NCBI GenBank assembly: GCA_964036195.1 | Contig: OZ038460.1 | Coordinates: 19,989,526 to 20,053,525, forward strand | DNA: 64,000 nt | From: Sphaerolaimus hirsutus | Lineage: Eukaryota > Nematoda > Chromadorea > Monhysterida > Sphaerolaimidae | Reading direction: 5' to 3' | Shown: positions 15,270 to 58,800 of the stretch, piece after piece | Position numbering within the stretch: position 1 is the stretch's first letter | Layout of the letters: the number at the start of each line of letters is the position of its first letter | Translations under genes and position numbers: made by a program | Notes under the pieces: generated by a model | What the model saw: only the letters and a program-made list of their open reading frames with translations | Database searches by the model: none | Told to the model about the DNA's origin: nothing

Positions 15270-17352
15270 TGGCACATTTGTAAAATGTCATGCAAAGTGT
15301 CAATTGTCATGACAAATGTAAAGTAAAGTACCAATTTTCATGCAAAATGTCAAATGTCATGTAAAATTTCAAGCAAAGTGGCAATTGTCATGACAAATGT
15401 CATGCAAAGTGTAAATTGTGTATCCAAATCTTGTGTTTTTGTATCCATAGTTGTTTTATATCCAAATCTTATGTTTTTGTATCCAAATGTTCACATAAAA
15501 TTTGGAGTCAACAACAACATAATTTTGATACAAAACATAAGATTTTGAAATAAAACATGAGATTTGTCAGATATTTTACGTTTTTACTAATTTTACTAGC
15601 TTCCGTTTTTTACCACAAAATACTCCACTTGTCGAACCGCTGCGGCGGAGAATTGTAGTTTCCGGTCCCTTTGCGCTAAATGCGTGCGTAATTAAATAAA
15701 TGGTTGTTTTTTTATGGTACGGAGATTTTACACGCAATTCAGGAACAGCACCAGTACCCCTTGGGGTCCTGGCAAGTTCCCAAGGACAGACACGGCAACT
15801 TACCAATCCCTTTTGTATTTGCAGCTGGTGCTTTACTTCAATGAGTCGTTAATTAAACCAAAATTAAACTGTTAATCAATTAAATTAGAATTAAAAAGCA
15901 GTTAGTTGCTTCAGGGGGACTAAGTTGATGTTCACGGGAAATTTATTTAGCAGTAATCAGAGTCAAATCACAGTAGCACAAGTAAGTCATAAACCTCTAG
16001 TTGGTACAAAAAATGCAAAATCAGCGCATTTTATAATCACCAAAATTCTACCATATCATAGCTGAATACTAGTTTCAAGACACAACAAAATGACTGTAAT
16101 AAAAAATTATAAGGCAAAAATTTGATCACTGGAGAACGAAACAGTATAAAATATAAGGCACAAGAAAATAGGTTATGGCCGGAGAAATGACAGAATACAA
16201 TCCAAAATAAAATGAACAAATGAATGAAACGTAAATGTAATTAATCTAACGTAATTAAAATATCTCAGCGGTAAGTGTCATAAACTGCGCTTTTATTCAA
16301 CAGTTACGGTACAATTTAGAACAGGTGCTGTGACACTATGTTATCACCTCGCGCCGTTCTAGGTAAAATATTTTATGGCGCGCCCGACCAAGGCCACTGA
16401 AAGAAATGCTCATTGTGGGGGTTTATTCAAGGTTACTTCATTGCCGGGTAAGGGGTGGGAACTTTGGGCATGAGCACACGCTACAAAGACACTAGCACTT
16501 TTGAGTTCACCTATCACCCTGGGTGATGGGAATAATTAATTGGCACTGCTGTGCTCTTCACTTCATGCTGTGCTCTGCATGTGTCTTGTAGGCGCACTTT
16601 GATAATAATTGACTTTTAGCCACTTTCCCGCCCATTACCTATCCTAAATAAAATGCACCTGGTTGGGGAAATTTCCGAATGTTATCTCTTGGGGTGCTAA
16701 AGAGTGTCTAACAAAGTGCACACCTTTAAACTTAGCAAGAAATTTCAAAACCTTTCTAGCCCATTTTCAGACACTACACCTTTTCGGACAACTATGCAAA
16801 ACCAAATCACGTGAAAAAGAATAAGAATAACTTGTCCAAAAGTGCAAAGAATGGGAAATAATCACTTCAGTCTGCTTAATCCTAATGCAGGTAGGAAACA
16901 AATTTAATTATGCAAAAAAATTCGGGAAAACAATTAAAAATACGTGGGAATAATAACGTAATTAACGGAAAAGTTACTAATTAGTTTCATGGCCGCAGCA
17001 GTTTCCATTCGGGCGTACCGTCCTGGGGCTGCAGCCTCGTTGGCGAATTGCAGTGCACAGCAAACTCCGCGTTCACTGTGACTTCCCTGTGCACCGCGTG
17101 TCTTCATTCAGTCACGCATGGTCGTTTTCGAGTCGTCGGAGTGTCTGCACAAAACTGTCGTTACGTTTTTACGCATGATTGGCTAGCCATATTTCCACCT
17201 ACAGATTTGAACACAATTTGCTTGACAATTGATACTTAAAGTTTCACATCATGACAATTTACACTTTACTTTACATTTGTCATGACAATTGGCACTTTGC
17301 ATGACATTTTACATTACATTTGATACTTTACAATGCTTGGGACTGCCCCCAG
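15270..17352 (+). mobile_element. Interrupted introner-like fold-back element
   Basis: The left half (about 15270-15545) holds TAAAATGTCATGCAAAGTGTC and the central TGTATCCAAATCTT.. GTTTTTGTATCC motif. The right half (17225-17352) holds the inverse (CACTTTGCATGACATTTTAC) and ends GCTTGGGACTGCCCCCAG, the family's right terminus. About 1.7 kb of unrelated AT-rich sequence separates the halves. The left terminus is degraded, and no exon is evident at either side, so this copy seems intergenic. Confidence 0.5.
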
Positions 17353-35440: not shown

Positions 35441-38400
35441 CTAACCTGAATCCGTCTCTGCACTAGATGAATCCTTCGAAGAGCCAGACGAACTCCTCCT
35501 AACTGATTTCCTGGGATAAAACAATCCTAAATTTATTTTGTAAAATTGCAAAAAAATCAAGTAATCTGTCATTGCTTTCCCCCGTCAAAAATACTGACTT
35601 TTTTGCGGAGTCCAGTTCAGCGTGGCACGTAGATAACTTTTCCTGCGTTTCACGTTCCTTTGTCCTTTCACGTTCCAAGTCCCGTTCCGCACCAACAAGC
35701 TTTGTTCCCAAATTGGCGACCTGGGGCCAGTCCCAGACCCTGTAAAAGATCCTGTAAAAGTGTAAAAGACCCTGGAAGTGTATAAGACCATGTAAAATGT
35801 CATGTGTGATGTAAAACACCCTGTAAAGTGTCAGGTGTCATGTAAAGTGACAGGTGTATCCAAATATTTTTGTATCATATTCAAGTGTCATGTTTTTGTA
35901 TCCAAATCTTATGTGCAAAGGTAAGATTTTAGTACAGAAACATAAGATTTGGATACAATGCAATAAAATTTGGTTACGCATGACACTTTACAGGTTTGTT
36001 ACATGACATTTGACACTTGGCAGGGTATTTTACATGACTCAGGACATTTTACCGGGTATTTTACGCTTTACAGGGTGTTTTACATGGTCTGGGACTGCCC
36101 CCTGTGCTTTAGTCTCTTTGTGCTCTGCCAGTTCCCGCGATAATTTGCGGTTGGCCTCTTGCAGCTCTGCTGTAGACTGTAAATGGGTGTGAAGTTGGAG
36201 AATGTAAATCAATTGACATTGCTTAAGTTGAATGGAGAGAAGTTTTTAAAAATGACTTCAACACAAGTGGAAAGGTGCAGATGCGGCGGGGGCAGGTGGT
36301 GCTGGTGCGATTGCGGGCGGCAAGTCCTGGTGCCAGTTCCGCAAAATGAGAAGTGAGAGGTGAAATGGTGTAAGACGGTTTTTTTACGATGGAAAAAGAC
36401 CCACCCCACAAATTTTTAGACACTGAATGCAATAATAATTCACGAGACGTAAACTAAAAGCTAACTCTGTACACTAGTCATTTGAATAAAACCCCTCAGA
36501 TATCTTTTCAGCTATTGGTAGCCTACGGGGCCTGCGCGGCATGTGCAGCCATGCAGTGGGCTGCGCAATGCCCTGACAGAGCGCTGCAAAACAAGATCGC
36601 CCCCTGCTATACTGGCAGACCAAGTTTTCCATGTTCATAGCAGTTGTAGTGCTCTGCACAATGTTTCCATTCATTAATTCAATTTCCCAATGTACCATCT
36701 TCTAATTAAGACTAATTATTTAATTGTCAATTTTCAAGTAAACAACATTCCACGTGTCACAAGGTGAGAGGGGAATTTCACATTTTTCTAAGAATACCAC
36801 TGCGCGGCATGTGGACACTATTGAGTATAATTAGTATTGAGTATAATCACTAACTTTACTCATTTTTTTGTTTGGCTAGATTAACACTGCTTTAATTTCT
36901 GCGCTGCTTGTGCTAGGTGTAAGTGCTGTGAGTGCCGGCAGAAAACGGAGCAGCGTGACCTCCGAGAGGTCACTGCACGCTCTGGAAAACTTGTCATCGT
37001 ACATTTCCCATAATTTGAAAGGCATCACCTGGACCCCCGGGCTTAGTGCAGTGCACACCGAGGGCGAGCAAACGACGGCACAGTGTGGTAGGGAAAAAGC
37101 AGTGCACGGCAAACTTTTGAACCCATACAGCCAAAACAGCGGCACACACAGATTCATGACAATGGCAAAGGCGAAGTAAAGGCGCAAAGGCGAAGTGAAA
37201 TGGCAAGTAAATTGGCAAAAGTGAAGTAAAAAAATAAAAAGTAATTTCTCCTTTGTAATAACTTTAGATAACTTTTCCTGCGTTTCACGTTCCTTTGTCC
37301 TTTCACGTTCCAAGTCCTGTTCCGCACCAATCAGCTTTGTTCCCAAATTGGCGACCTGGGGCCAGTCCCAGACCCTGTAAAAGACCCTGTAAAAGTGTAA
37401 AAGACCCTGGAAGTGTACAAGACCCTGTAAAATGTCATGTGTGATGTAAAAGACCCTGTAAAGTGTCAGGTGTCATGTAAAGTGACAGGTGTATCCAAAT
37501 ATTTTTGTATCATATCCAAGTGTCATGTTTTTGTATCCAAATCTTATGTGCAAAGGTAAGATTTTAGTACAGAAACATAAGATTTGGATACAATGCAATA
37601 AGATTTGGTTACGCAAGACACTTTACAGGTTTGTTACATGACATTTGACACTTGGCAGGGTATTTTACATGACACATGACATTTTACTGGGTATTCTACG
37701 CTTTACAGGGTGTTTTACATGGTCTGGGACTGCCCCCTGTGCTTTAGTCTCTTTGTGCTCTGCCAGTTCCCGCAATAATTTGCGGTTGGCCTCTTGCAGC
37801 TCTGCTGTAGACTGTAAATGGGTGTGAAGTTAGAGAATTAAAAATCAATTGACATTGCTTAAGTTGAATGGAAAGAAGTTTATAAAAATGACTTCAACAC
37901 AAGTGGAAAGTGTAGAAGCGGCGGGGGCAGGTGGTGCTGGTGAGATTGAGGACGGCAAGTTCTGGTGCCAGTTCCGCAAATTGAGAAGTGAGACGTGAAA
38001 TGGCAAAGGCGAAGTAAAGGCGCAAAGGCGAAGTGAAACGGCAAGTAAATTGGCAAAAGCGTAGTAAAAAAATAAAAAGTAATTTCTCTTCGCTTTTGCC
38101 ATTTCACTTGCCATTTCACTTTGCCTTTGCCCCTTCACTTCTCACTTCTCATTTTACGGAACTGGCACCTGGTGCCAGCTCCGCAAGTGGAGAAGTGGCA
38201 AAAGCGAAGTGAAATGGCAAGTAGATTGGCAAACGCGAAGTAAAATGGAAATGACAAGTGAAATGGCATATTCGTTTCTTAACTTGACTTGCAACTTTTC
38301 TTCACCTTTGCCAATTCACTTGCCATTTCACTTGGCTTTTGCCATTTGTGCTTTCACTTCTCCACTTGCGGAACAGGTCCCTGATCGGCAATTGCTCTGT

Positions 38401-42391: not shown

Positions 42392-42798
42392 GTGGCAGGC
42401 AATCCCAAGCCCTTTAAAGTGTAAACTAAAGTGTCAAATGTAAAGTCAAGTGCAAAGTCAAATGTCAAATGTAAAGTAGATTGTCAAATGTAAAGTCAAA
42501 TGTAAAGTAGTGTCAATTGTGTATCCAAATCTTATTTTTTCGTATCCAACTTTTCTGTTTCTGTATCCAAATCTTATGTCAAAAAATAAGATTTGGGTAC
42601 AAAAACATACGATTTGGTTACGCAAATAAGATTTGGATACACTATTTCACACGTTACTTTACATTTGACACTTTACTTTACATTTGACATTTGACTTTCC
42701 ATTTGACACTTTACTTTACATTTGACACTTTACTTTTTCATTTGACTTTACATTTGACACTTTACTTTACACTTTACAGGGCTTGGGACTGCCCCCAG
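42392..42798 (+). mobile_element. Introner-like element, family 1, copy c
   Basis: 407 bp from CCCAG|GTGGCAGGCAATCCCAAG to CTTGGGACTGCCCCCAG|TTCC. Inverted CAAATGTAAAGT/ACTTTACATTTG arms and a TGTATCCAAATCTTAT centre. GT and AG lie exactly at the ends, but coding exons at either side are not convincing. Confidence 0.6.
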
Positions 42799-46032: not shown

Positions 46033-46826
46033 TACCGTATTTCCTCGAAATACCCCCAGGGGGTTTATTTTTTCAGAGTGAAAATTTTGAGTTGGTATTT
46101 CGAGGGGGGCTTATTCGAGGGGGGTTATTATTTCGTCAGAAGTTTTCATGAAATATCATAGTAAAAGAGTACGCCTTTTCATACCCAAAACCCGTAATAA
46201 ACGCGATAATATAGGATATATTCGGACATATCGGGTATATAGACGTACATCTGTATACATATTAGCATATACCGTAAATCCTCGAATAAGTCCCCGGGGG
46301 AGTTATTTTTTCCTCAAAATTATTTGACGGGGGACTTATTCGAGGGGGGGAGTTATTCGAGGGGGGGAGTTATACTGAGTAAAATACTTGATCAGTATAT
46401 CATCTGAATGGTGTTAGGTAGACTGCATAAACGTGTGAGCCAGAATATAAATCCCGTAATTCATGCAATAAAATCAATGCTAGTGTGCATAAACTGCAAA
46501 ATAATGAATGCTTTTAATGAACATATACATACATACGTTTTTTAAACTTGGACTTCGTTCCCACCCACAAAAGGGGGGGGGGAGTTATTCGAGGGGGGGA
46601 GTTATTTTTTCCTCAGTCAGTTTACAGGGGGGAGTTATTCGAGGGGGGGAGTTATTCGAGGGGGGGGACTTATTCGAGGATTTACGGTAGGTATGTGTAT
46701 CTGCGATGAAAATTGGCGTCAATAAATACATCATGTACAGTGCATACATGATGTACATCATTCCAGACGGGGGTATTTCGAGGGGGGGTTAATTCAAGGG
46801 GGGGGGTAATTCGAGGAAATACGGTA
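46033..46826. mobile_element. T-family element with a second one nested inside
   Basis: The outer copy runs TACCGTATTTCCTCG (46033) to CGAGGAAATACGGTA (46826). Nested at 46270-46689 is a variant with ends TACCGTAAATCCTCGAATAA and TTATTCGAGGATTTACGGTA. G-run interiors, non-coding. Confidence 0.7.
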
Positions 46827-46896
46827 GGTATATTACTGAAAAAAAGTGAAAAATTAGGCATCTCCCCACCAAAAAAACCCTTAAAATTAACCGCAG

Positions 46897-49800
46897 TCCG
46901 ACGTTACTCAAACTGCGAATACCAACCCATGGGCAAGTGGTTCGATGAAGCCAACAGAAAGGGGAAGTGCTTATATTTGCAGAAATTGGAGGGCGCACGC
47001 GGTGCACTCCCGGACCCTGTAAAATATCCTGTAAAATGTAAAATGTCATGCAAAGTGTCTAAAGTCATGGAAAATGCCCTGGAAAATGTCAAACGAGTTT
47101 GCCACTTTGCAGGGCATTTTACATGACTTCTGACACTTTGCATGACATTTTACATTTTACAGGATATTTTACAGGGTCCGGGAGTGCCCCCAGGCCCTGA
47201 GCATTTTATGAAATGCGGCAGCGAGGGCGGCACGGCCTTGGCGATAGCCACGGTCGAGGAATTCAATTACGTGTACGAAAGATGGATTAACACCAGAGGT
47301 GTGTTTTGGTTGTTGTGTTTTTGTGGGGGCAGGTGCCTAATAGGAGATCTATCACAGAGCAAGCACATCCCGAAAAACGTATTTACTCAGTACGCGAGTA
47401 TACATACTTTTTGAGTAAACGTAAATACATTTGAACAACTATGTTAAAATGTCGTTTGAAAAAAACGCTTGCACATTTACGTAGTCACAACTAGTGATGA
47501 AATGGCGCCCTTGGCGCCTGGCGGGCACCCAAAAAAGGGCACCAGAATGGCGTCAACATGGTTTTAGGGTGAGTTTTCACAATATTGACAAAATTAACAA
47601 TATTGAGTGCATCAAGAATAGTTTTTCAACTTAATCAGAGAAATTGTTGTTGTGACATTGGTCAGATTATCTCACAGACATTTGTAGTGTTTGTGTCCAC
47701 CATTTTACCTGTCAGTCTGTTAGGGATACCCTTCCATTTGAACCTATTCCATTCTACTAGAAGAACTATGGTATTCATAAAAATCAGTTACATAAATACA
47801 GTAACATTCTCAACTCACATCAGCATATGACTGTGCTTCTTTCACGTTTTTTTCTGCCTCTATTGTTATTTTGAACACAACGCGATTGTGAAGGGAGTGA
47901 ATTAACAGTTGAGTACTTTCTCCATGGCGCCATTGGCGCCTGGCGCCCCGTTTCTGAATGGCGCCATGGCGCCCCTGGCACTTGGCGCAATTTTTCTGTG
48001 GCGCCCTTGGAGCCTGGCGCCCTTTTTTCTGGCACTTTTCCATCACTAGTCACAACGCAGATGCGGACTACGCGCTAATGGGTGCTGTAAACATGTGGTC
48101 AGTTGAATATTATACCAATCCTGACGGATCTCCTTTCTATGGCGCGCCATACGATGCACGGCATCCCACCAGTGGATTTTGGCGTAAGTTCTTACCGTAT
48201 TTCTCCGTGTAAACCGCCCGGGCGTTATACAAAACCAAGGCACTTTTCAGCAACCTTTTTTAAAACTTGTATAACGCCCGGGCGTTAAATTATTGGGGAG
48301 GGGGGCGTTATACACGGAAAACATTTCGCTTACAAATCTGCATAAATATTTTTTTCCCAGCGTGCAGCGAATTCAATGAAAAACGTGCATATGCTGAATA
48401 ACAATGCATGCCGCAAAGTCACAGCATTCAAAAATTCAAACGACATGAACGCTTCATTACTGTGCAGCTCGATTTGACATAAAAATATTTCAAATTGGCT
48501 TAAGTTTTTGAAACCAAGTATAGCGCCCCGGGGCGCTATAAAGCTGTATAACGCCCCGGGCGTTGTGCACGGGGGGGGCGGTTTACACGGAGAAATACGG
48601 TAATGTGAGCAGAGTAAGTATAGTTGGTTCAGATGGGGGTGCACTGATACGCACATCTGCCCGTTACGCACATTTGCCAGTTTTTTTCACTTGACACTTT
48701 TTTGATTTCTTGACACTTGACACTTCACTCACAAGTGATTTTCGGATATGAGTGAAGTGAAAAACGCAGCGCAATGACATGAGTGAACTTTTTTCACTTC
48801 ACTCATCTGAAAATCACTTGAAAATGTGTCAAGTGAAAAATAGCTATTTTTCACTGTTTTTTTCACTTGACACATTTTCAAGTGATTTTCAGATATGAGT
48901 GAAGTGAAAAAAGTTCACTAATGTCATTGCGCAACTTTTTTTCACTTTACTCATATCTGAAAATCACTTGAAAAAGTGTCAAGTGAAAAAAATGGGCAAA
49001 CGTGCGTAATGGGCAGATGTGCGTATCAGGCGGGCCTGCCCCGTTCAGATTTCGCACAGGGGTTCAGTATGGCAGCGGGTTTTGTGGGGTTACCCCCAGA
49101 AGCTCCAGCTATCTATTTCGCGGCAAAATTTCGAAGGGTTAACGAGGGGTGTATTTCGAGCGGGGGTTTATTTTTTCGTTATTTCGAGTTTTAATCAAAA
49201 AATACAATTTCAGTAAAAGGTCAACCAGAGGGTTGGGGGAAAAAATGTCGATCAAAAAGTATGGTAATTTTCGCTGACCAATGAGCATTTTTGTTTGTAC
49301 AAGTGATTAGTGCAGCAATTTGCGCATTATCTACTGTGGATCTTGTGAATCATGTCACATTTATATCATGTATTGAGCAGGATGGGTCACATATGAGACA
49401 TTTTGTCGTTATGATAGATCTAAGGTTTAAATTATGTCTTTATCATAGTGTATTGAACAGAAATATGAGAAAATTTGAAAACATGTTTTTAAATTTCCAA
49501 ATCATTCTTGAGACAAAATCGATTTTCAATCGATTGTTACTGATCAGACTACATGCTTAAATGTAATTGCACATTAAATAGGAAATAAGAATAGCTTTTT
49601 GAATTTTTCCAATATTTTTGTTGTTTTCACATGAAAATGTAACTTTCACTTTAGATTTCACTTTTCTGAATAAATTCAAAAGCAAAGTTTAAGATTTGAA
49701 AAGTTTCAAAAATTTAAAATGTGAAATGTCATTTTAGTGGGGAAATGGGGATACAGCTGGGAAATGGGCGGCATTTCATGCTGCTGTTGTTTTCCAAATG

Positions 49801-52800
49801 CAGATTTTTAGTTTCACATTCTTTAGCTGTACGCGTGTTGGTGCACACTTTAAACAGATTTCCGGTCTCCGTATGAAACATTTGGGGATTTATCAGGATC
49901 CATATAAATACTTATCTACCACCCAGTATTTTTCATATGCATGACAAACAAAGCTCATGCCGCCAGCGGTTTATACAGCATTAAGCCATGATCAAGCGCT
50001 GAGTTGCACTTCAAAGGCGACGCCGCACTCCGCCGTATTGTGCCTACACACACTAGTTTTCACCGCCTTCGTGTGAAAACTTAAATTTTTTCAAATGCAA
50101 ATTAATAAACACGGTTGAATGATTTCATTTAAATTAAATTTGAATTAAAATTAATGAAAGTTAAAGTTTGAAAATTTGAAAAATAAAACACATATAGCAT
50201 ACGATAAGAGTAGGCTGAATGTCGCCATGTGGCCATTTCAGTTTTCACACGTGTCACGGTGAAAACTAGTGTGTGTAGGGCCATTGGTGTCTACCATATT
50301 CTTTAATCGACCCTTTTTAGGCCCAGAGCAACCACAGTCGGCGCGCGGCGGTTCTTATGAGTACTGCGTGAACCTTATTCGGGGCGACCGCGCACACGAT
50401 TATTATTGCGAGCTGGATCGGACCTTTTCTGCGTGCTCCTTTCATCGTTCGTTTTTAAATCTGCCATTTTTGTATGTTTTTTTGGGGGGTAATTTAGAAC
50501 GATAAAATGTGGTGTGGTTGTAGATCGTGTCTAATCGATATTTGTTGTTTTATAATACATAATTTGATAAAAAGCGGGGCTGTCGAAAAAAGCGCTTTTT
50601 TCTATCCTTAGCAGGTCCTTAAAAAGCACGCTGCAGAGTTGCGAAAGCGTATTTACGCTTACCCGAAATACCCGGGCAAATGGGTATTTATACTTACGCT
50701 TATGCTTACGCTTTCGTAAAATACCCATACGCTTTTTGCGCTTTCCCAGCCTAATTACCCGGGTACTCAAAGCGTAAAAAAAACGTTTCACACGGTCCAG
50801 TTTTATGCTTTTGAAAAAGTGTAAAACAACAAAAAAAGAACAAAAACAGGTACAAAAAAACTGCAGTATCACACTAAAAACAGCAGCAAACGTATAAATT
50901 CTGTTGAAATACATATGTCTCATCAAAATTGTCTTGCCTAGCCATATCGTAGCTTACGAATTTTGTGGCTGAAAATGGATTCTAAAAACAGTCACTGAGA
51001 GCTTTATTTTGAAACAGTTCACTGAACAAAAACAGACTCTGGGATGCATTACCTTTGCCGCCACTTTTTGTGAGTATATATTCATCTGGTATGCATTTTT
51101 ACTTGATTGTGAATGCATACAGAAACTTAATGTATACCGTATTTCTTCTAATAGAACGACATACCTCCAATATACCTACTCGCTATACAAACTGTGTATA
51201 TGTGGTGCATATATAGTGTACTTACACCGCAAATCCTTGAATAAGACCCCCCCCCCCTCGAATAACTCCCCCTTGAATAGGTCCCCCCTGCTGGCGGGGT
51301 GAGGAAAAAATAACTCCCCCCCCCTTGAATAACTCCCCCCTCTTGGATCACTTATCCCTCTGCTGAAAAGGATATGATACAAAACTACAAAAGAATAGTA
51401 GCCTATGGCAGCGACAGTAGATACATAATGTGTATGCAGTGTATACACATTGTATTTTTGTTGTTGGACAGTGAATTACCTGAATTACACGAGTTTACAT
51501 ACTACATCCATACAATGAATTAAGTCCAAGCTTCCTAAGGACAAAAAACGTCCCCCCTCGAATCACTCCCACCCCCTTGAAACACTCCCCCCTACAAAAC
51601 GTCTGACGAAAAAATAACTCCCCTGGGGTCTTATTCGAGGATTGAGGGTATATGCAAACTAGCAGCAATAAGTACATCATGTACATTGTATACATGATGT
51701 ACGTCATTCCAGACAGGGGTATTTCGAGGGGGGGGTTATTTTTTCCCCAGCTCAAAAACACCTGGGGGTATTTCGAGGGGGGTTAATTCAAGGGGAGGGG
51801 GTATTTCGCGGAAATACGGTAAGTATGCAACTGTGTTCTAATTAAATGTGAAAATATGAATGACAATGGTGTTTCAATTCATCTAAAAGTGAAAGCAAGG
51901 GTGTTTTCTGATGCTCAGAAGCAAGAGCACTTTCTAAAAGAAATTTACGCTTACGCTTTTTTTTACGCTTTCCTAGGTATTTCAAAAATACTTTACGCTT
52001 ACAGTATCCATACTCAAAATTTGGAAAGCATATTTATGCCTACGCTTACGCTTTCCAAAAATACCGGTATTTTAACGACTCTGGCACACTCTGGCAATAA
52101 ATTCATCTCATATTTTTCTAGCAAATGTAAAAAAAATTTCAACAACTTGTTTTTCTCTTTGTTCTTACTTTTTAACATGAATAGTAGGTTTACAGCTTAG
52201 ATTATAAATAAGTAGGGGCATGTTCAATTGTCTCCGCTGTCAATCAATTCCCATTTAAAGCTTCCACCAGTTTAGAATACCCCCTTTTAACCCACCCAGG
52301 AGAACAAGTTGACTGTGACTTCTACGCAAATCTTGGGAATGACCTGAGCGAATACGGTCAATGGACAAAACGTCATCTGGTGCCACTCTCAGACCCTGTG
52401 AAGTGCCTGTAAAATGTCAAATGTCAAGCGGAGTGTCCATGTCGAACGTCATGTAAAATGCTCTGTAAAATGTCAAATGTCAAGCGGAGTGTCCATGTCG
52501 AACGTCATGTAAAATGCTCTGTAAAATGTCAAATGTCAAGCGGAGTGTCGAACGTAATGTAAAATGCCATGTAAAATGGCAAATGCATGGTATTTCACAT
52601 GACTTTGCAAAGTTCTTGAAAGTATCAAACTTTTTTTAAAGTATACATAATTGTTAAGTAGATATTTCTTTTTACTTACCCCCTGAGCATGGTTGGTTTT
52701 TGTAAAATTCTTAAAATTTTCTTTATTAAAATTGTATTTTATTTTATTCATGTTTCATTTTTTTAATTCTGAAATGTCATTAATAAAATAGAATGAAACC

Positions 52801-55800
52801 ATTTTACAAAAATTTTACAAATATTTTACAAAATTTGTACAAAAAATCGGAATCTCGGATGCAAGGCCATAAAACAATGTGCACGCCAGAAGCATGCAGT
52901 TGAATACCAAAAATTTAATTTAGACTTGTGACACTTGCGACGTGTCACAAGTCTAAATTTTGGTTGCGACGTAGGTATCTTGAATTTTGACCCTCGCAGG
53001 AGCTGTATTGATGTGTAGCTAATTGCTCCTCCCAAGGGAAGATAGCTAAAAATTTGTTATATTTGGGGGTGGGGGGCTTGCGGGGTTCAATATAAAGGCT
53101 TTTTCAAGGTATGGAATGAAGAAAATGGGGAAAAAATAACATAAATTAGTGATTTTTAAGGTGAAAAATATATTAAAAGATGTGCAAATTCTCAACTTTT
53201 AGCAAAAATACTTTTAAATCACAACAATGAAAGCAATAACAAGGAACCAGTTCTGCAAATGGGCAGATAGAATCTTAAGCAACAGGATAGAAAGCGAGCT
53301 GTCAGTGTTTTGTGGGTCGCTGTGAATGTGCTGTTTGCCTATTACTAGGGTGTCAAATTTCCGTTTCCGTTTTCCGTTTCCGCCTTTCCGCAGGAAAATT
53401 TTTTACCTTTCCATTTTCCGTTTTCCGGCAGCCAAAAAATTTTTACCTTTCCGTTTTCCGTTTTCCGGCAGCCGAAAAATTTTTACCTTTCCGTTTTCCG
53501 TTTTCCGGCAGCTGAAATTTTTTTACCTTTCCGTTTCCGTTTTTCCGGCCCATTTTTCCGTTTTCCGGCTGAAAAATTTTTACCTTTCCATTTCCGTTTT
53601 ACCAGGCCATTTTTCCATTTTCTGGCTCAATTTTCAGTTTTCTGGCATTTTTCCATTGTTTTTTCAATCTGTATTTATCTTCAATTGGCTCATCCCATTG
53701 TGTTGTTTTTGTCTCTTGGAGCAGCATTGACAACTGGGATTTCAGGGTCAGTGAAACAGGTGCTGTGAACCCAATTGGGTCATATGCTGACACCAATAAT
53801 TTATTCAAGTTTCATCTGGTTGGTGTTGTGATGCTGTCAATTTGCAATTTTGGTGTTGATATTGCCAGCATGTCTGTTCGGTGATTTTATTTGATTACTG
53901 CGACAATTTTATTCACCTTTGGATCATGTCATTTTCTGCTATTTCATTCATGACTGATCTGGAGTTTGACAGCCATTCCCTCATGTTCATAGAACATTGG
54001 TTCAATAAAGCTTTGACTTTGTAATATAGTTCTAAAGCTTCAACTTCATTCGTGACACTCATGATGAAGTTATCGATGTAAATGTTGTTTATTATCATCG
54101 CCAACTGGTTTCGTTCCCCTTCATTTTCTTCATATTCATTCATGTTGTTTATTGTCACATTTAAATGGTATTTTATGACTGCTGGGCTGCAGACAAGTCC
54201 AAACAGTATGCGGTCAAAACGAAGTACTATTAAGTTATTTTCAGTTACTGGTTTTGAGGCATCTTTCAGCCAGAAAAATTGTGTGTAGTCTCTAGCTTGG
54301 TCATGCAATCCTATTTGCAAAAATGCCTTTTCAATATTGGCAGTTAATGCTAGATTGCCTGCCCTGAACCTCAGGAGTAGGCCCAGTGCTGATGGTGTTG
54401 TAATTGGTCCTCTAAAAAGGCACTCGTTGAAACTGGGCTTACCTGCCAACCCTTTCGTACACGATTCTGCATGATGTCGATTTGCCCGGCATGATTACTG
54501 GCTGGTGTGGCAGGTAATGAATCCCCTTGTTGTCTGTTTTGTCGTCACAGATCTCAATTATTCCCTTTTCTAGTTGGTCATCCAAAACTTTCCGGTATTG
54601 TTCGAATAAGTTTGGATCTTTGTTGAATCTTCTTATCAGTGATTTAAACTGCACCAAGGCTTCTGCTTTTCCTGTGGGCAGGTCACTGATACTCTCGTTA
54701 TACGGCCAGTCAATATAGTATCGTTTGTTGTTGTCGTTGAATTTTATGCTATTTATTATCATCTCCTCTGCAATGTTGTCATCAATTGCATAGGGGTCAT
54801 CAGTGATCCCCACTGCTTCTAGACTGTGAAATTGTCATAGTGTTTCCTTTCCGATGGCCACTATGGCTACTTTTTGATGATTTTTTGTTGGTTCAGTTAA
54901 GCTTGAACTACAAGTGAAGTTACAGGCATGATCCATAGTTGCAGAATGTACAGCTACCACAATCAAAACCAAACAGGCCAACCTGCATGCAGGTTTTCCT
55001 TCTGCAAATTTGTCTATTACCGTGCTAATTTCACCTTATTTTTTCCGTTTCCGTGAAAATTTTGCTTTCCGTTTTCCGTTTTCCGGCATTTCATTTTTCC
55101 GTTTTCCGTTTTCTGGCCGACAATTTTTTTTTACCTTTCCGTTTTCCGTTTTCCGCTGAGTGAAATTTTTTTACCTTTCCGTTTTCCGTTTTCCGTAAAG
55201 TGAAAAAATTTTACCTTTCCGTTTTCCGTTTTCCGTAAAAAATTTTTTTTGACACCCTACCTATTACCAGCTATTGTTGGACTAAATGTGCTTACCTAAA
55301 TGTGTATATAGGTATACCGATTTTTAGCTTGTCCCCCCTTCATTTTAGGTTTGTCCTATTTTTCTCTCATGCATTGAAAAAATCCTATATAAAAACAACT
55401 TATCTGAAATACGTTTTCTGTACTTGGGTACTTTTAAAAAGTATTCGCACCAACTACGGCCCAGGTAATTTTGTTCCTAGGAACTCGAGTGCGTACGAAT
55501 GTTTTGATGTAACGTGGGTAGTGATGTAAAAGCGCCATGGCGCTGGCGCCTGGCGCTAGCGCCAAAGCAAAAAGCGCCATGGCGCTTTTGGCGCTTGGCG
55601 CCTTTTTGCCGTGGCGCCATTGGCGCTTGGCGCTGTGCTACGGAAAAGCGCCATGGCGCTTTTGGCGCTTGGCGCTATGATGCCGTGGCGCCATTGGCGC
55701 TTGGCGCTAGCGTCCGAAAAAGCGCCAAAAAAGCGCCAAGGAGTTCAAAAAATATATCATTATATTATGTATAAAGACCTTGTGTGCATAATTCGCATTA

Positions 55801-58800
55801 AGTAAATGTGTTAATGTAAGTAAATGTGTTAATGTAAGTGTATTCCAGGACAAAACAAACCCTCTACTTGCAAACCATGTCCATGCTATTGCAATGATAT
55901 TCACAACATTTCCCAGATAATGCGCCTAATGGTTCCTATCCCAATTCAAAGCTTGCTCACGAGCCGATCGGCGACGTTCAAATGCATTCTGTTGCATTCA
56001 TTATGTTGAAAATGACTTTGTTTTGTTGGTATTTTATGTGCAATGTACCAGGGGTCAGTCGCGTCGTGATGGCTTGTGTTTGTTAACCCGAAGTCTCAGG
56101 TGTAAAATAACATCACAAAAAGAAGGAAACTTGATTTGATTTGACGTATATCGTGCGTCTTACACAAATAAATAGCACAGAATTAGCATGGCTGCACTTT
56201 ATGAGCCGCAAAAATTTTTGGCGCTTGGCGCCAACATCCTCTGGCGCCATTGGCGCTTGGCGCCGCGTTCTAGAAAAGCGCCATGGCGCTTTTGGCGCTT
56301 GGCGCCGAAAGTCTGGCGCTTTTTACATCACTAAACGTGGGTACATGTATTAGGTTGTAAACTAAATAACCTTATTTTTTTGCGATTTCACATTCATGCG
56401 TCCCATTCTGTTGTACATTGGCGGACATTAATGCCGTTCGAGTATGTTGGAGTTTGGAGTTGGGGCTATGACGCAATCTTTTTGTTTCCTCAAATAATCC
56501 CCCAGTCCCGAGATAATGGGGGTCTATAAAAAGGTGGTCATTTTGAAAAATCCGATCTGGATGTTGACTTTGAAGCTCCATACATCAGCCATTTCCAGGC
56601 CGATTTGAATCAGTTAACACTTAAAATGATCGGTGAAACCCACAGATTCCATTTTTGTGGTCAGATTAGTGATGTTTGAATTTCGTATGCTGATTTGACC
56701 CGGTTTTTCAACACCAGAAATTTGTGTTTCTGACCATGCTATCATAAACTTTAGATAAAGAGAATTCATCTGACGCAAAGAAATTTTTAAATATCTATTT
56801 CCAATCAAACGTTATAGCACTTTGAAATTTAGCCTCCTAACTATAGAAAAAGTAACCGCATAAAGCCGCGGGAATGCAACTTCTCCATATGCATATCCTT
56901 TACACATCTCCAATGGGAGAAGATTTGCTTAACTTACATCACTAATCCGACAACAAAAATGGAATCCGCAAGTTTTACTGATCATTTTAAGCGTTGATCG
57001 ACCCAAATCGTCCCAGAAATGGCTGATGTATGGAGCTGCAAATATCCGTCCAACATCCAGATCGGCCATTCAAAACGACCACCTTTTTATAGACCCCCCT
57101 TATCTCGGGACTGGGGGATTATTTGAGGAAACAAAAAATTTTCGTCATAGCCCCAACCCCAAACCCCAACATACTCGAACAGCATTAATTTCCGCCAATG
57201 TACAACAAAATGGGACGCATGAATGTGAAATCGCAAAAAAATTAAGGTTATTTAGTTTACAACCTAATACATAGACATAAAATGGTTCAAAATTCTGGCG
57301 GTGACAGTGAGTGACAGGCATTTTGGTGGCGGTGACACCGATATATACCATATTACCCCAACTTAACCCCTTGAATTAACCTGCATCAAAATACACCCTC
57401 CCCCTAAAATTTAGCAGGGGAAAAAATAAACCCCCTTCAAATACCCCCACCCAAATTGAGTGTAAAGAGAATGTACACGACAAATACCGCAGTTTGTGAC
57501 CTGTGTGATGCAGAACACAGTTGAAGTCTAGGGTGTCAAAAAATTTGCTTACGGAAAACGGAAATGGAAAAAAATTTGAGCGACCAGCAAATGGAAAACA
57601 AGGCCGGAAAACCAGAAACGGAAAGATGAAATTTGCATGGAAAAGGAAAAAAATTGCTGAAATTTTGATGGAAATGGAGAAAAAAACATAATTGAAAACC
57701 TGCATGCATGTTTACCAGTTTGGCTGAAACAGAGTGATGTTAAGGCCCCTCAATAAATGTGGCGGTGATTGTCACCGCTATGACACCTCATTTTGTGGCG
57801 GTGACATCGAAAAAGCAGGCGGTGACAATCACTGCATCACCGCCACATTTTATGTCACTGACCTAATACATAAAAAACTATCAACTCTGGCATGAAATTT
57901 TACATGAAATTTGATTATCAGAGGCGCCAGGAACAAAACGCCTGGCGCTGGCGCTTGATGCTAGCACCAAAACAAAATACGCCATGGCGCTTCTCGTGCT
58001 TGACGCCAAAGTAGTCCCGGCGCATTTTCCATCACTACATTTGACATCGTTACAGGTCGTCTCATTTGACATTTGACATTTGACACTTTACAGGGTATTT
58101 TACAGGGCCTGGGACTGTCCCAGGTAGCGAGAACTGGCAAATGCTTTCACCTGCGGTTTGGCGAGGGTGGACCGGCTGGCCGCAATCGCCACACCGTTAA
58201 AAGTCACGCCGATTATTGCCAATATCACGTTCGCGGTATGTTGGCAACCTTCCAAGATGCGAATGAGTTGGATGAAGTTGTGGCTGAGTTGGTGAAGCTG
58301 ATTGAAAGTCAAGTTTCAGGTTTGTTGTGGGTCGGTGTCCTGTTGCTGTTAAAATCGAAAATTAGCACAATTTTTTTTTCCAATCGTGTATTTTAATTCG
58401 CCACATCAGTGTGATCGGAGTTGCATATAACGATGGCAAACCCCCGAGGCAAACCCCCGAGATTTAAATTTTTAAGTGTTTTTTCTAAAACTAATTTTCG
58501 AATTTTTCCCCAAATAAATTTTCGAATTTCGAATTTAATTTTCGAATTTTCGAATCTTTTTTAGCAATTTTCGAATTTTTTTGGCCAGTTTTCGAATTTT
58601 TTCAAATAATTTTAGAATTTTTTTGGAAAAATATTGAATCTGAAGCTTTTAAACACATTATTTGGACTGTTTTCATATTCTCCTCAGTTTTTATAACCTT
58701 AAAACGTTCCATAATTTAGCATTAAAAATGGTGGAAGGAGTTATACGGACCAGGACCAGTGTCCTGCTTCTTCATTTAATTCACACATTGACACATTTAA

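Follow-up and report, generated by a model that had tools for sequence, protein, structure and literature searches.

In all likelihood, an intron in a gene of the nematode Sphaerolaimus hirsutus is an introner: a DNA element of the cut-and-paste type, non-autonomous and nearly palindromic, whose insertion at a CWG target interrupted a coding exon. The gene lies within a 64,000-nucleotide stretch of contig OZ038460.1 (assembly GCA_964036195.1, positions 19,989,526 to 20,053,525 of the forward strand), here called the window, in whose numbering the coordinates are given. Judged from sequence alone, the element would provide the GT donor, and the duplicated target the AG acceptor. The relevant features of the window gene are as follows.

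46897..47001, + strand: upstream coding exon, seen in the sequence as an open frame, with a putative boundary and a candidate acceptor AG at 46895-46896
46999..47001, + strand: target-duplication position on the upstream side, where CAG has diverged to GCG; the same GCG is found in the paralog (L002)
47002..47190, + strand: foldback element with the 5' end GTGCACTCCC, which carries the GT donor, and the 3' end GGGAGTGCCCC
47191..47193, + strand: CAG at the target-duplication position, read as the AG acceptor; seen in the sequence, its position set by the 92-site family table
47194..47298, + strand: downstream coding exon, seen in the sequence as an open frame and followed by GT at 47299
52380..58123, + strand: second intron of the window gene, with the family left end at 52380 (flank CTG), the right end at 58111-58121 and CAG at 58121-58123

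The first-pass annotation had described the first of these introns as exactly one foldback transposon, and this description holds. Two arms of 94 nt each (47001-47094 and 47097-47190), 93% complementary, are separated by a 2-nt spacer. The upstream frame is open from 46752 to 47123 and then runs into a stop inside the element, and excision of 47002-47193 joins the exons in frame (...KLEGAR|GPEHFMKCGSEGG...). The predicted RNA fold has an energy of -140.3 kcal/mol, compared with -43.1 +/- 4.4 for shuffled sequences (n=200; z -22). In the fold computed for the isolated 47002-47193 RNA, the unpaired bases are the first two (GU) and the last six (CCCCAG), and the internal AGs are held in the stem; the sequence TTTTACAG occurs near the 3' end. 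The splice dinucleotides are GT at 47002-47003 and AG at 47192-47193, and the last three intron nucleotides (CAG) lie outside the palindrome. Since this AG sits in a host CAG at the target-duplication position, the proposal that the element supplies both splice sites has to be rejected in favor of an element that carries the GT donor only. The upstream copy is GCG and not CAG, so that the window insertion's own duplication is no longer intact.

Other parts of the annotation fared less well. The name "intron 1" reflects only the annotator's own numbering, as a candidate acceptor precedes the exon that was counted as the first. The gene had been called a lectin, and we have dropped this name: neither the window gene nor either of its two repeats was recognized by Pfam or PDB, its product yielded no usable match in Pfam, PDB or protein databases and none to the C-type lectins, and the resemblance consists of a cysteine/GG-LA pattern noticed by eye. 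The second repeat had been cited as the intron-less state of the first. Its exon is indeed continuous at the matching place; the match between the repeats covers only 17 columns with an E-value of 0.009, computed for that pair alone. The second-repeat exon is itself preceded by an apparent copy of the same family (52380-58123), and the exons around that copy join in phase 0 (...TKRHL|VARTGKC...). Given the family ends on both sides, the right one leading into the AG of a CAG, the window gene seems to hold two family introns; we infer that both ends of 52380..58123 belong to one insertion, which was opened by later insertions.

In the searched part of the genome, a single paralog of the window gene was found, approximately 36 kb away and in inverse orientation. 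It has the same intron, is 96.6 to 97.6% identical to the window gene in the two longest aligned stretches, and keeps the arrangement. No empty site for the window insertion was found in the searched part of the genome, where the only other copy of the gene shares the intron. Other inverted-repeat elements were seen in and around the gene. Just 5' of the upstream exon, at 46033-46826, there is a repeat-bounded element with the ends TACCGTATTTCCTCGAAATACCCCC and its near-complement and with a nested pair of TACCGTAAATCCTCGAATAAGTCCCC; two more, identified by eye, lie in introns of the gene at 48190-49035, with ends like ACCGTATTTCTCCGTGTAAACCGCC near 48195 and 48602 and like ACGCACATCTGCCC near 48648 and 49010.

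The element is dispersed, as the annotation had supposed. Three genome searches, with the window element and two other copies as queries, were run on a genome of 348 Mb of contigs and returned 3514, 703 and 2723 first-look candidates, which are not copy numbers; with the window element as the query, the 40 candidates scored out of 3514 came from 40 distinct places. The searches listed no place on contigs C5, C8 and C10-C12, and statements on single copies refer to the searched part only. The resulting family table contains 103 loci representing 92 independent insertion sites, which were picked by likeness of the element, irrespective of context; a few badly aligned ends (e.g., L071, L074, L079 and L091) were retained in this count. 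In the window itself, motifs resembling the terminal inverted repeats (TIRs) are in excess, with 25 instances of GGKGCACTCCC (at most 2 mismatches; 12.2 expected) and 36 of GTGSCAGTCCC (14.3 expected), counts reached in 0 of 100 shuffles in either case. A search of viral contigs with one family TIR pattern gave 0 matches. Additional family members in the window include the following.

17333..17349, - strand: family TIR with the GGGGCAGTCCC end, followed by CAG on the + strand
35724..36101, + strand: relative of 378 bp that has GGG at its ends and CTG on either flank; it lies in a coiled-coil-like open reading frame (ORF) of the minus strand
37359..37736, + strand: tandem-duplicate copy of the 35724 element together with its ORF
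42779..42795, - strand: family TIR of a longer copy

The 378-bp members occupy a tandem duplication (35500-37985) of the coiled-coil-like minus-strand ORF, one in each copy; on the strand of that gene, they read CAG|GGGGCA..., and a possible donor lies 6 nt into the element (GGGGCA|GTCCC). At 37965-38168, CTG flanks a related element whose ends are GTGCCAGTTCC; in the duplicate, the same left end occurs at 36330.

Flanking 3-mers are identical at 62 of the 92 sites, compared with a mean of 35 and a maximum of 52 for shuffled right flanks. At 71 sites, both flanks are CAG or CTG, and in 59 of these they are identical (CAG/CAG in 38, CTG/CTG in 21). Identical flanks and CWG on both sides identify the target site duplication (TSD) of the family as a 3-bp CWG. 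In calling the right-hand TSD, priority was given to CWG or to a sequence equal to the left copy, with 2 to 6 nt allowed after GGGASTG, a rule that is biased towards agreement; flank tables at fixed positions display the same CWG pattern. A consensus of 64 elements is a palindrome over 181 nt at 99.4%, and departs from symmetry mainly in the four bases at its termini, with GTGC at the left end versus CCCC (complement GGGG) at the right end. At 85 of the 92 sites, the first two bases of the element are GT. The window site was filed one base early (CGC|GGTGC) and is thus among the 5 "GG" starts, its GT beginning at 47002. In L069, the element start (position 1498) is GA and not GT (CAG|GAGCC), within an LDL-A domain. 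Two pairs of loci represent either recent duplications or assembly artefacts: L009 and L011 (contigs C16 and C2) are 100% identical over 4188 bp, and L081 and L084 (C271 and C2) are identical over 585 bp.

Many copies appear to interrupt coding exons. We joined the flanks of 40 sites after removal of the element and one TSD copy, picked the reading frames by eye (in four sets of 10), located the junction by counting, and compared the peptides with domain families at E<=0.01. At 19 sites, the match spans the junction, as listed below (match, E-value where available).

L007: UDPGT, 0.0037; non-AG 3' end; under the Pfam curated cut-off
L009: Fringe, 1.8e-13
L013: trypsin, 1.5e-5
L020: PAS, 3e-7; non-AG
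L024: WD40-type, 1.6e-4; non-AG; under the Pfam curated cut-off
L028: peptidase M13, 4e-8
L036: FMO, 2.5e-6; non-AG
L044: sulfate transporter (SLC26), 6e-17
L050: Amnionless, 2.4e-5; under the Pfam curated cut-off
L067: C2H2 zinc finger; non-AG
L069: LDL-A, 5.7e-9
L072: C2H2 zinc finger
L076: Kelch, 0.0027; under the Pfam curated cut-off
L089: TSP1, 2.4e-8
L096: VWA, 2.9e-5
L099: VMAT2 structures (PDB), 4.5e-24, without a gap at the junction; non-AG; no family in Pfam
L103: dynein, 6.6e-21
L113: PKD channel, 0.0083; under the Pfam curated cut-off
L116: P4HA, 2.3e-20

The L024 peptide resembles proteins to which their source gives the name IFT172; the top match has 68% identity over 97% of the query. 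Matches that reach only the junction edge were left out (iGluR in L018, nicotinic receptor in L100, bestrophin in L086). At the thresholds used, no family was found for 15 of the 40 peptides (4, 3, 4 and 4 of 10 per set); in the set where L058, L006, L026 and L034 had no family, only L028 among the other six passed its cut-off. Across the 92 sites, the element ends coincide with the putative intron junctions; the case for introns comes from the joined coding sequence and extends to the 19 sites that have spanning matches, not to all 92. The GC content of the flanks is 0.52 within 100 bp and ~0.40 beyond 200 bp, as expected of short exons. Similar copies thus seem to lie at many intron positions, with the similarity reaching the splice boundaries, which would make the family one of introners.

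The element also appears to be oriented with respect to its host genes. One rule was applied to both strands: the longest frame was taken, with at most 38 residues per side, and searched against Pfam at E<=0.01. Among 64 site groups, 55 sense and 53 antisense peptides had the length set by the rule, and 54 and 52 of them, respectively, were scanned, L001 being omitted from the sense set and L002 from the antisense set. Pfam matches were obtained for at least 10 of the 54 sense peptides and for 1 of the 52 antisense peptides (Fisher p 0.008 for 10/54 versus 1/52); the sense count is based on 25 of 33 families listed, assigned by name to at least 10 sites, and includes some matches under curated cut-offs. 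The sole antisense match, L086, has GTGCC at both element ends, so that its gene, too, reads GT first. Open frames alone did not separate the sense from the antisense strand.

These observations bear on two other accounts of the window intron. Its position could be that of an older intron which a transposon later filled, and both the sister-repeat comparison, which cannot date it, and its presence in both gene copies would agree with that. However, the exon ends are separated by nothing more than the element and a single TSD copy, both here and at the other sites with coding flanks, and a VMAT paralog on contig C3 (52% identity) is continuous across the position of the L099 junction and has no intron there. 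We therefore give this account almost no credence, and intron gain by insertion, as the annotation had it, is supported, the window gene itself having no empty site in the searched part of the genome. It is also very improbable that the window gene is a pseudogene carrying an ordinary insertion: the lack of a usable Pfam, PDB or protein-database match for its product would agree with that, yet the exons on both sides are open and in frame, the closely similar paralog has kept the arrangement, and the pattern seen across the family would stand without this gene.

The preferred scenario, insertion of an introner into coding sequence, can be spelled out as follows. A NuwaI-type (PIF/Harbinger-like) transposase probably mobilized the element; the TSD is seen in the family, and the enzyme is putative. 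To go by the consensus and the GGG-ended relatives, the ancestral ends were probably GGGGC on both sides, of which the left one became GTGCC, the donor, probably through base changes in one arm of a GGG end of the kind still present at 35724-36101 and 37359-37736. Insertion into a coding-strand CAG with the GT end first would give an RNA of the form ...CAG|GTGCC...GCCCC CAG|..., with GT from the element and AG from the duplicated target; by removing the element and one CAG copy, the spliceosome would restore the pre-insertion mRNA. For copies at CTG targets, the end would be TG, and the prediction is that they either form GT-TG introns or are removed less well.

At the TSD-defined end, 38 of the 92 sites, some of them in conserved exons (VMAT, PAS, FMO and IFT172), have a dinucleotide other than AG (TG in 32, including 27 CTG; CG in 3; AT, AC and GG in 1 each), and the 19 sites with junction-spanning matches comprise 13 with AG and 6 without it (L007, L020, L024, L036, L067 and L099). 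On the right-hand flank, CAG outnumbers CTG by 53 to 27 (p 0.005), which suggests that AG is favored and not required. One way out of non-AG copies that we considered was an internal AG 9 nt away (GGGAG|TGCCCCCTG); we rejected it as an explanation for all of them, since the exit is missing where GGGAG is absent.

A bolder reading, somewhat less likely than not, is that CAG copies form GT-AG introns and CTG copies form working GT-TG introns, the hairpin setting the 3' end without AG by exposing the intron ends and burying internal AGs, and some CTG copies later turning into CAG. A rather unlikely alternative is that only the AG-ended copies are introns, and that CTG copies damage their genes as insertions that are spliced in part or not at all, or are polymorphic. 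The AG excess across sites agrees with this alternative, as do nearby in-frame AGs that could be used in seven copies: L020, L022, L024 and L026, which have GGGAG and an in-frame AG 9 nt upstream that could leave 9 nt, L004 and L082 (18 and 21 nt upstream, respectively), and L036 (9 nt downstream). Yet of 10 measured non-AG copies that lack the GGGAG end (L004, L007, L019, L036, L041, L064, L067, L081, L082 and L099), 7 have an out-of-frame AG as their nearest both upstream and downstream (L007, L019, L041, L064, L067, L081 and L099), the distances being 19 nt upstream and 7 to 17 nt (76 in L099) downstream. Moreover, the non-AG VMAT copy, L099, is the only close VMAT found in the searched part of the genome, and the UGT duplicates L007 and L019, 95.6% identical, have both kept the CTG/CTG copy; their codon changes (1 synonymous, 3 not, in 100 codons running past the exon) are too few to use. 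Removal by a hairpin-dependent, spliceosome-independent route resembling SOS splicing, in which pairing of the arms is followed by excision of the hairpin and religation of the exons, would make AG unnecessary and would suit the 94-nt arms with their very stable fold and the non-AG copies in conserved exons, which are about as distant from the consensus as the AG copies. Such removal should be indifferent to orientation, yet sense matches exceed antisense ones, and the right-hand excess of CAG over CTG likewise argues against it, making it distinctly unlikely. As for the age of the CTG copies, median identity to the consensus is 0.922 for CTG/CTG copies (n=15) and 0.931 for CAG/CAG copies (n=23), so that the former do not look younger. 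A bias of CTG-to-CAG maturation was not significant (8 sites with CTG on the left and CAG on the right versus 4 with the reverse; p 0.39), and a single polarized CTG/CAG case remains, L087 versus L081/L084.

Animals rarely have introners, and one seldom gets to see a transposon on its way to becoming an intron. In this case, a single genome displays the likely ancestor (the GGG-ended relatives), the donor-making change from GGG to GTG, and the source of the acceptor in the duplicated target. The split between CAG and CTG targets lets one ask, as in a natural experiment, whether an intron whose ends are joined by a hairpin still requires AG, and with over a third of the tabulated copies lacking the usual 3' splice signal, the family offers a direct way into the birth of introns.

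The transposase assignment rests on NuwaI, a PIF/Harbinger-like group of the PHIS superfamily which, in the available text of its description (PMC4482050), has a 5'-CWG-3' TSD and TIRs that usually start with GGG and occurs in 16 animal genomes. The CWG TSD at 71 of 92 sites and the animal host are shared; the right end of the family here starts with GGGG..., whereas the left end starts with GTG..., and GGG at both ends is seen in 35724-36101 and 37359-37736. That text does not describe NuwaI elements as introns, and the transposase of the present family is a putative one. In the open-licence literature, introners and Harbinger came up together only for fungal genomes, judging by the listing, and NuwaI and introns only in human genetics, judging by title. 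SOS splicing also removes transposons from mRNA and is presented, in the accessible part of a review (PMC13247085), as a defense that uses an unknown nuclease and the RTCB ligase; in contrast, the orientation bias and the GT point to the spliceosome here. Non-AG introns have arisen by other routes, according to the portions available, in Amoebophrya (PMC7789003) and larvaceans (PMC13326754). The Amoebophrya introner elements, as described there, share hairpin-forming inverted repeats, direct repeats of 3 to 5 nt at the borders and non-canonical ends, but belong to a dinoflagellate and have varied inverted repeats of 8 to 20 nt, whereas the nematode copies form one family with a conserved GT donor. 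GT-TG introners have been reported in Micromonas (IE-B and IE-D; PMC3879977), where, according to the description consulted, the whole class has these ends; in the nematode family, the choice between TG and AG would depend on which strand of CWG was hit, a distinction drawn from that description.

The closest parallels are the DNA-transposon introner families surveyed by Gozashti et al. (2022; PMC9860276), which, in the sections available, bring one splice site along and obtain the other from the TSD, those of Chrysochromulina carrying the 5' site and co-opting the 3' site, and which are reported from only two animal groups. In common with them, the family here consists of a dispersed element that equals the intron, with TIRs, TSDs and one splice site from the TSD. 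It differs from what those sections describe in its animal host, 3-bp CWG TSD, near-perfect palindromy of the whole element and a choice of 3' end, AG or TG, that depends on the target. On sequence grounds, it may be regarded as a variant of the published introners that carry one site and draw the other from the TSD, a variant whose AG or TG end would be set by the target.
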